A DNA stretch of 40,448 bases, taken from the NCBI GenBank assembly GCA_015492495.1, contig WGEY01000023.1:1-40448 (forward strand). Reading direction: 5' to 3'. The position numbers and the translations under genes are program-made. Positions within the stretch are counted from its first letter, which is position 1. Every line of letters begins with the position of its first letter. This stretch comes from Deltaproteobacteria bacterium. Its GTDB lineage: Bacteria; Desulfobacterota; GWC2-55-46; DRQE01. Below, piece after piece: positions 958-1,827 of the stretch. Under the pieces are notes generated by a model. The model saw nothing but the letters and a program-made list of their open reading frames with translations, did no database searches and was not told the DNA's origin.

Positions 958-1605
958 CTATATGCGCCCTTCCTCGCGGTGCCTTTTACTATAGCCATAA
1001 GCCCCGATGAATATAAGCCCTCCGCCTAAAAGCAGCAACGTGCCGGGCTCGGGTACAGGGGCCACGCCGCCGATCACCTCAAAGGCTACTGCTCCGCCGC
1101 TTGCTCCCTCAAAACCTATCATGTAGACCGTTGGGGAGCTCAAGCTGGGAAATGTCGCCGCGGCATCAAAGGCCGGTGTGTTCAGTGACGCCACCGTATA
1201 GAAGGTGGTGGAAAGCGTGGAAAAGAAAAAACCAATGCTGTCGCCTGGATTGGGGACAAACGTATCCTGCAATTCCCCATCGTCAGAGTCCCAGACAACC
1301 CCGCTGCCGAAGTTGATAATGGCGCTCTGCGGGTCCCAGCCCGTGGTTTCATCCTCGGGACCGAATATGGTGACCAGTTCACCCGGGGCCGTACCGAAAA
1401 AGAAGCCGAATCTGCTGCCAGTAATCAGGCCTCCAGCGTCCCACACCTCGATGCCCAACACAAGATTATTCGGAATAAACAGCTCCGTTCCGTCGTCGTC
1501 CGCCCAGACCGAAGGGTCGGGGTTAGTTATGGTGGCAGAACCATTCCCGGCGAGAACGAAAACCGCTGCCATAACCATAAACATTGCCAAGATCAGTCTC
1601 TTCAT
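958..1605 (-). CDS. PEP-CTERM sorting domain protein
   Basis: This is a 215-residue secreted protein. Residues 1-24 form a signal peptide (MKRLILAMF..., hydrophobic core, cleavage likely after GNGSA). The body has no domain I recognise and is rich in Asp, Gly, Phe and Thr. The C-terminus is a textbook PEP-CTERM sorting signal: V-PEP-GT at about residue 184, a Leu/Gly/Ile transmembrane helix, then a basic YSKRHR tail. Such proteins are recognised by exosortase (EpsH/Xrt) and are usually surface or exopolysaccharide-associated; no exosortase is in the window. The ATG at 1605 has an excellent AGGAGG six bases upstream. A sigma-54 promoter lies about 85-100 bp upstream, as expected for PrsK/PrsR-controlled PEP-CTERM genes. 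Confidence 0.9.
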   Translation of the reverse strand: MKRLILAMFMVMAAVFVLAGNGSATITNPDPSVWADDDGTELFIPNNLVLGIEVWDAGGLITGSRFGFFFGTAPGELVTIFGPEDETTGWDPQSAIINFGSGVVWDSDDGELQDTFVPNPGDSIGFFFSTLSTTFYTVASLNTPAFDAAATFPSLSSPTVYMIGFEGASGGAVAFEVIGGVAPVPEPGTLLLLGGGLIFIGAYGYSKRHREEGRI

Positions 1606-1688
1606 TCCACACCTCCTTTGCGGCCCATGATAAAAGCCGTTATCAGGGTTAAAACACCTATATCACCATCGCCTAACCACAGAAAGCT

Positions 1689-1704
1689 TGCAAATGCCGT
1701 GCCA
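1689..1704 (-). promoter_or_regulatory. Sigma-54 (RpoN) promoter of the PEP-CTERM gene
   Basis: Read on the minus strand the site is TGGCACGGCATTTGCA. It has the -24 element TGGCACG and the -12 element TTGCA with exact consensus spacing. Transcription would start near 1678, leaving a leader of about 70 nt before the ATG at 1605. PEP-CTERM genes in exosortase-bearing bacteria are commonly RpoN-dependent, which supports the call. Confidence 0.75.
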
Positions 1705-1804
1705 AGGATGGCGACGAAACGAGCCGCACCATAACCAGTTGATTCTCAAACGTTTTCCTCTACAGTTCTGCGGCACTTCGTGTGTGTCTATATGAAGAGA
1801 CTGA

Positions 1805-1827
1805 AAGTGTAAATTTTTTTTACACTT
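1805..1827. promoter_or_regulatory. Perfect palindrome, candidate enhancer-binding-protein site
   Basis: The sequence is AAGTGTAAA, then TTTTT, then TTTACACTT: a 9-bp perfect inverted repeat around a 5-bp T spacer. Its centre lies about 140 bp upstream of the predicted sigma-54 start at about 1678. That is the usual distance for an activator (for example a PrsR-type regulator) that works by DNA looping. It could instead be part of a weak terminator for cysN, which ends at 1899, but the T-run is in the loop and not after the stem. The operator reading is inference. Confidence 0.45.

Follow-up and report, generated by a model that had tools for sequence, protein, structure and literature searches.

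Upstream of a PEP-CTERM gene in a 40,448-nt stretch of deltaproteobacterial DNA (referred to as a whole as the window), a first-pass annotation had placed a perfect sigma-54 promoter and, further upstream, a perfect palindrome, which it tied to the regulator PrsR and proposed as the activator site by which the regulon of this lineage could be mapped. The locus therefore raises the question of whether the palindrome is an operator of the PEP-CTERM system, a site for some other regulator, or an inverted repeat of no consequence for the promoter below it.

Promoter and palindrome upstream of a PEP-CTERM gene

The gene at 958–1605 (minus strand) forms a single-gene unit and encodes a 215-aa PEP-CTERM sorting-domain protein (P0001), matched by TIGR02595 with 22 bits (cut-off 16) and by PF07589 with 30 bits, with a signal peptide and the C-terminus PVPEPGT...YSKRHREEGRI. 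A Shine-Dalgarno sequence, AAAGGAGG, lies immediately 5' of the ATG. The sigma-54 -24/-12 promoter, TGGCACGGCATTTGCA, is a perfect match at 1689–1704 (minus strand); its element at 1690–1704, TGGCACGGCATTTGC, has zero mismatches to TGGCACNNNNNTTGC and is the sole perfect match within the window, where the same pattern with one mismatch allowed was seen twice against 2.4 expected. Genome-wide, the 16-mer is one of 23 matches to TGGCAYNNNNNTTGCW. Judged from the -12 element, transcription would start near 1678, leaving a predicted 5' untranslated region of about 73 nt (1606–1678, minus strand). A sigma-70 promoter scan of the region found none.

Read along the minus strand, the palindrome (1827–1805) is followed by the sigma-54 site (1704–1689), the Shine-Dalgarno sequence and the ATG at 1605. 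This predicted upstream activator site (UAS), AAGTGTAAA-N5-TTTACACTT, consists of arms at 1805–1813 and 1819–1827 that are 100% complementary around a TTTTT spacer, and its 19-bp core (1807–1825) lies 102 bp from the -24 T (1704). Both elements were found exactly where the first-pass annotation had put them, and the palindrome, centred near -138 from the predicted start site, does occupy an enhancer position as claimed. Symmetry alone is not significant, because 52 inverted-repeat pairs in the window satisfy the same criteria. The 14-base core GTGTAAA-N5-TTTACAC, by comparison, occurs perfectly only once in the 2.26 Mb genome (about 0.008 expected under uniform composition), in the window, and its sole one-mismatch copy, on contig C81, is also 5' of a PEP-CTERM gene; two further matches in the palindrome-only scan carried two mismatches. 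The palindrome is meaningful through its position and recurrence, and unremarkable as a bare inverted repeat. Orthologue footprinting yielded one clear orthologue (G032, 46% identity), whose promoter is without the palindrome.

PrsR-type sites in the genome

The regulon of this genome (G000) was mapped using pattern searches, family searches and targeted stretches. Among the promoters of its 21 PEP-CTERM matches, the prevailing form of the site was GTGTCGG-N5-TTTACAC, of which a genome scan returned 8 perfect copies and 19 with at most one mismatch, most of them 60–115 bp (a few 215–218 bp) 5' of a sigma-54 site and a PEP-CTERM or secreted gene. The palindromic form precedes the gene on C23 (the window) at 102 bp and that on C81 at 106 bp, and C107 has a degenerate copy at about 105 bp; on both C81 and C107 the CGG form is found as well, some 110 bp farther from the promoter, near 215–218 bp. 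Because GTGTCGG-N5-TTTACAC is the lineage consensus, a scan with the palindrome would miss nearly the whole regulon here, and its proposed use as the mapping site of this lineage had to be given up, even though both copies that such a scan recovers (one perfect, one with one mismatch) do precede PEP-CTERM genes. It would map the regulon in another genus, g14.

The proposed link to PEP-CTERM and PrsR was borne out by a bona fide PrsR (TIGR02915, 640 bits; cut-off 502.6), the only one over cut-off. Its gene is on contig C54, adjoining two regulon promoters that each combine a sigma-54 site with a PrsR-type site. PrsK (TIGR02916) was not found over its cut-off of 300 in the draft genome, the only match being a 117-bit fragment (C16, 382–1071). 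Unlike in G001, G014, G017 and G047, prsR here has no preceding prsK; the contig (L289) starts 527 bp before prsR, and positions 1–527 look non-coding.

Two side observations came from the same mapping. The stretch C38 51109–51300 (L060, L066) holds a divergent pair of canonical PrsR-type sites less than 200 bp apart; one is perfect, the other has a mismatch, and one of them faces a small zinc-ribbon-like ORF. On C103 (L021), a minor-pilin-like gene has a perfect sigma-54 site with an IHF consensus 12 bp upstream and is without a PrsR-type site; the adjoining NtrC-family regulator is likely its activator.

Lineage-dependent forms of the predicted operator

The palindrome was searched for in 147 genomes, namely this one and 146 relatives, and was found in perfect form in six: G000, three members of g14 (2, 3 and 4 copies), G047 and G112. 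Outside the window there are 11 perfect copies, and ten of them are followed after 73–186 bp by a sigma-54 site and then by a gene for a PEP-CTERM or secreted protein; in eight of these ten genes the product has a PEP-CTERM-type tail (VPEL in one case), and the other two run off the contig. This recurrence argues for the earlier claim that the palindrome is an activator-type site, although this class of site had already been predicted in 2006 as "motif 1" (PMC1569441). The promoter and gene of one g14 genome are also present in the public record Deltaproteobacteria bacterium OFTM366. The remaining copy, in G112 (L091), sits between divergent transporter-like and oxidoreductase-like genes without a sigma-54 site and probably belongs to another regulator.

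Across the site table, the proximal half TTTACAC was constant and the distal triplet depended on lineage: CGG in G000 and G001, AAA or TGA in g14, and CCA in G023 and G026 (the latter from the second set). The perfect CGG form was confined to G000 (8), G001 (2), G008 (1) and G025 (1), with none in g14, a genus of the same order in which the palindrome is the dominant form. CGG accounted for 16 of 18 G000 site entries, a few of which list a single site twice, under two loci, against 18 AAA and no CGG in g14 (Fisher 4e-8). Related sites were also found further afield. A Vibrio alfacsensis PEP-CTERM gene has GTGTCGA-N5-TTTACAC 71 bp before its sigma-54 site, one of Nitratidesulfovibrio vulgaris is preceded by CTGTCGGAGAACCTTACAC, and a PEP-CTERM gene of Rhodospirillaceae shares the three-part layout of the window gene, including the palindromic form. 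CGG sites occurred in 4/4 genomes whose PrsR has Asp after RPTLY/F versus 2/11 others (p ~0.01, a post hoc comparison of small numbers), G025 and G027 being the exceptions; this apparent correlation between recognition helix and half-site is weak and may serve as a lead only.

The closest published counterpart is the system of Haft et al. 2006 (PMC1569441), in which proteobacterial PEP-CTERM genes are preceded by a 17-nt motif 1 ending in TTTACA, a spacer of 62.8 +- 10.6 nt (32–92) and a sigma-54 motif 2, with PrsR as the predicted activator. In the window, TGTAAA-N5-TTTACA (1808–1824, minus strand) fits motif 1 as described there by length and 3' end, a sigma-54 motif follows downstream, the PEP-CTERM gene forms a single-gene operon, and PrsR is encoded in the genome. 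It differs in its spacer of about 102 nt, slightly beyond the range given there, and in the presence of an IHF site, of which that paper makes no mention. Its distal half is the mirror-symmetric AAA, in contrast to the CGG usual in this genome.

An IHF consensus site at helically phased positions

The first-pass layout of palindrome and sigma-54 site was correct in both parts and overlooked an IHF site between them. Alignment of three palindrome promoters exposed AATCAA-N4-TTR, the IHF consensus, and the window carries AATCAACTGGTTA at 1732–1744 (minus strand), without mismatch to the consensus WATCAANNNNTTR and centred 34 bp upstream of the -24 T. Perfect IHF sites were present in 17 of 56 intervals between UAS and sigma-54 site, where shuffling gave an expectation of 0.67 and never more than 3. 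Over 75 upstream regions, each of the 17 perfect sites on the gene strand was centred 13 (3 sites), 21–25 (8) or 32–35 bp (6) from the -24 T, against three perfect sites on the opposite strand. The centres at about 13, 23 and 34 bp are one helical turn apart. In a held-out set of 40 further promoters with the bins preset, 5/6 perfect sites fell inside (binomial 1.4e-4); this set is partly independent, as several of its genomes share genera with the first, and promoters of related genomes are in general not fully independent.

Periodicity pointed the same way. Over the 18 promoters with all three elements, the distance from IHF to sigma-54 site was strongly periodic (R=0.88; jitter null 0/20000) and that from UAS to IHF less so (R=0.65; 34/20000). 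Direct phasing of UAS and sigma-54 site over all distances reached at best R 0.39 at 11.2 bp (null 6/5000), which is suggestive only and becomes clearer with IHF as the middle point. Among the perfect sigma-54 sites of G000, an IHF site accompanied 8/10 with a UAS versus 1/13 without, and both IHF subunit genes are present (IhfA 130 bits, cut-off 111; IhfB 124.5 bits, cut-off 115). One Vibrio PEP-CTERM promoter with UAS and sigma-54 site lacked a good IHF site where one was expected, and by consensus none was seen in many of the g14 promoters whose UAS lies at 160–186 bp.

The order of activator palindrome, IHF site and sigma-54 promoter is also that of the Desulfovibrio vulgaris orp operons (PMC3897727), an IHF-assisted sigma-54 enhancer system with the IHF consensus WATCARNNNNTTR, where the IHF-supplied bend was shown for another activator. 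Here the activator and the genes are different ones, and across the regulon IHF takes quantised positions at about 13/23/34 bp. For pepA of Aquincola tertiaricarbonis (PMC9850573), an RpoN-dependent PEP-CTERM gene with mapped -24/-12 elements and a predicted upstream enhancer, the form of the enhancer and IHF were not analysed in the sections available. A literature text search returned nothing joining PEP-CTERM and IHF, papers with both "integration host factor" and PEP-CTERM being on other subjects by title, and both the mirror-symmetric activator site and the phased IHF site appear undescribed for this system.

Proposed mechanism and alternative readings

What can be read directly from the DNA is that the three elements are present, that they recur before PEP-CTERM genes and that their spacing goes in steps of about 10–11 bp. 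Taken together, these features suggest, with a probability of roughly 0.8, that the PEP-CTERM regulon has here a complete sigma-54 promoter of the enhancer-dependent kind, in which the palindrome is a symmetric variant of the PrsR operator. In sigma-54 systems, looping brings an activator bound at a UAS to the closed complex, and IHF provides the bend. Here, phosphorylated PrsR dimers would bind the palindrome (1807–1825) through their Fis-type HTH, and IHF would bend the DNA sharply at 1732–1744 and so bring PrsR to the sigma-54 polymerase. PrsR would then contact RNA polymerase-sigma54 at 1689–1704, and ATP hydrolysis would drive open-complex formation. The promoter-proximal half TTTACAC may act as the conserved anchor, while the distal half (CGG, AAA, CCA, TGA and others) would have drifted between lineages and here come to mirror the proximal one. 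IHF site and operator would shift jointly by whole helical turns, so that the spacer varies in length and the face of the helix does not. Because PrsR of this organism appears tuned to CGG, its binding to the AAA form is something we infer. A literature search found no paper showing PrsR bound to DNA, although its sites have been predicted since 2006.

Among the alternatives, a different sigma-54 activator or repressor could act through the palindrome over PrsR control of a few PEP-CTERM genes, with PrsR using only GTGTCGG. We consider this unlikely, although both site types do stand together at C81 and C107, about nine further NtrC-family regulators are encoded in the genome, and in other phyla the palindrome core with a sigma-54 site precedes non-PEP-CTERM genes, so that other activators can evidently use it. 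Against it, the PrsR-like recognition helix (RPTLY) was absent from every other NtrC-family regulator whose C-terminus was inspected; in g14 the palindrome takes the position of the CGG form, with a single PrsR in each genome of that genus where one was found; and in the PrsR system sites of one class commonly occur in tandem.

Readings outside sigma-54 control fared worse. The half-sites equal those of the TyrR/PhhR-type box (TGTAAA-N6-TTTACA) and comparable inverted repeats are numerous in the window, yet the spacing is N5 (a 17-bp centre) as in motif 1, one base shorter than in the box, whose targets are unrelated; no aromatic amino-acid gene is involved here, and a TyrR-type box or a functionless chance palindrome, which would not account for ten of 11 relatives' copies preceding sigma-54 sites and PEP-CTERM or secreted genes, is very improbable. 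A terminator or RNA hairpin ending the upstream cysN-like gene (stop at 1899) is more improbable still: the palindrome does lie about 72 bp past that stop codon and its RNA folds well (-13.2 kcal/mol, z -4.7), but the stem is mostly A-U instead of G+C-rich, neither strand has a U tract after it, a terminator scan finds none, and the sequence turns up again upstream of sigma-54 sites in different surroundings.

Overall, the palindrome is real and looks like a functional element, in variant form, of a known regulatory system. Tentatively, and at somewhat less than even odds, several lineages may share the quantised architecture, with IHF at 13/23/34 bp and the operator moving along, and a distal half-site that drifts together with the recognition helix of PrsR, the palindrome being one state of this drift. 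The reported standard deviation of the spacer is close to one helical turn, and spacer variation was previously unexplained. Combining the half-site preferences of each lineage with the phased IHF site allows sharper regulon prediction in PEP-CTERM/exosortase systems, which are important for the formation of flocs and biofilms. The regulon also provides a natural promoter series for testing the phasing of enhancer, bend and promoter.

The palindrome core outside PEP-CTERM systems

A collection-wide composite scan showed that the core is not exclusive to PEP-CTERM systems, as it was paired with sigma-54 sites upstream of genes of other kinds in Bacteroidales, Verrucomicrobia and Caldisericaceae. 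At nine loci (L264, L265, L267, L269, L271, L273, L276, L277 and L278), from Bacteroidales and one record labelled Alphaproteobacteria, tandem GTGTAAA-N5-TTTACAC-like sites precede sigma-54 promoters of ABC-transporter, membrane-protein and small-peptide (GG-leader-like) genes, with a constant total length (108 bp) in several; they probably belong to another NtrC-type regulon that shares this operator core. In two verrucomicrobial loci (L266, L275), the palindrome lies about 86 bp before a sigma-54 site, which is followed by a conserved 61-aa peptide, MKKT(T/S)HILKPRLKLSLGELILAVSSC...
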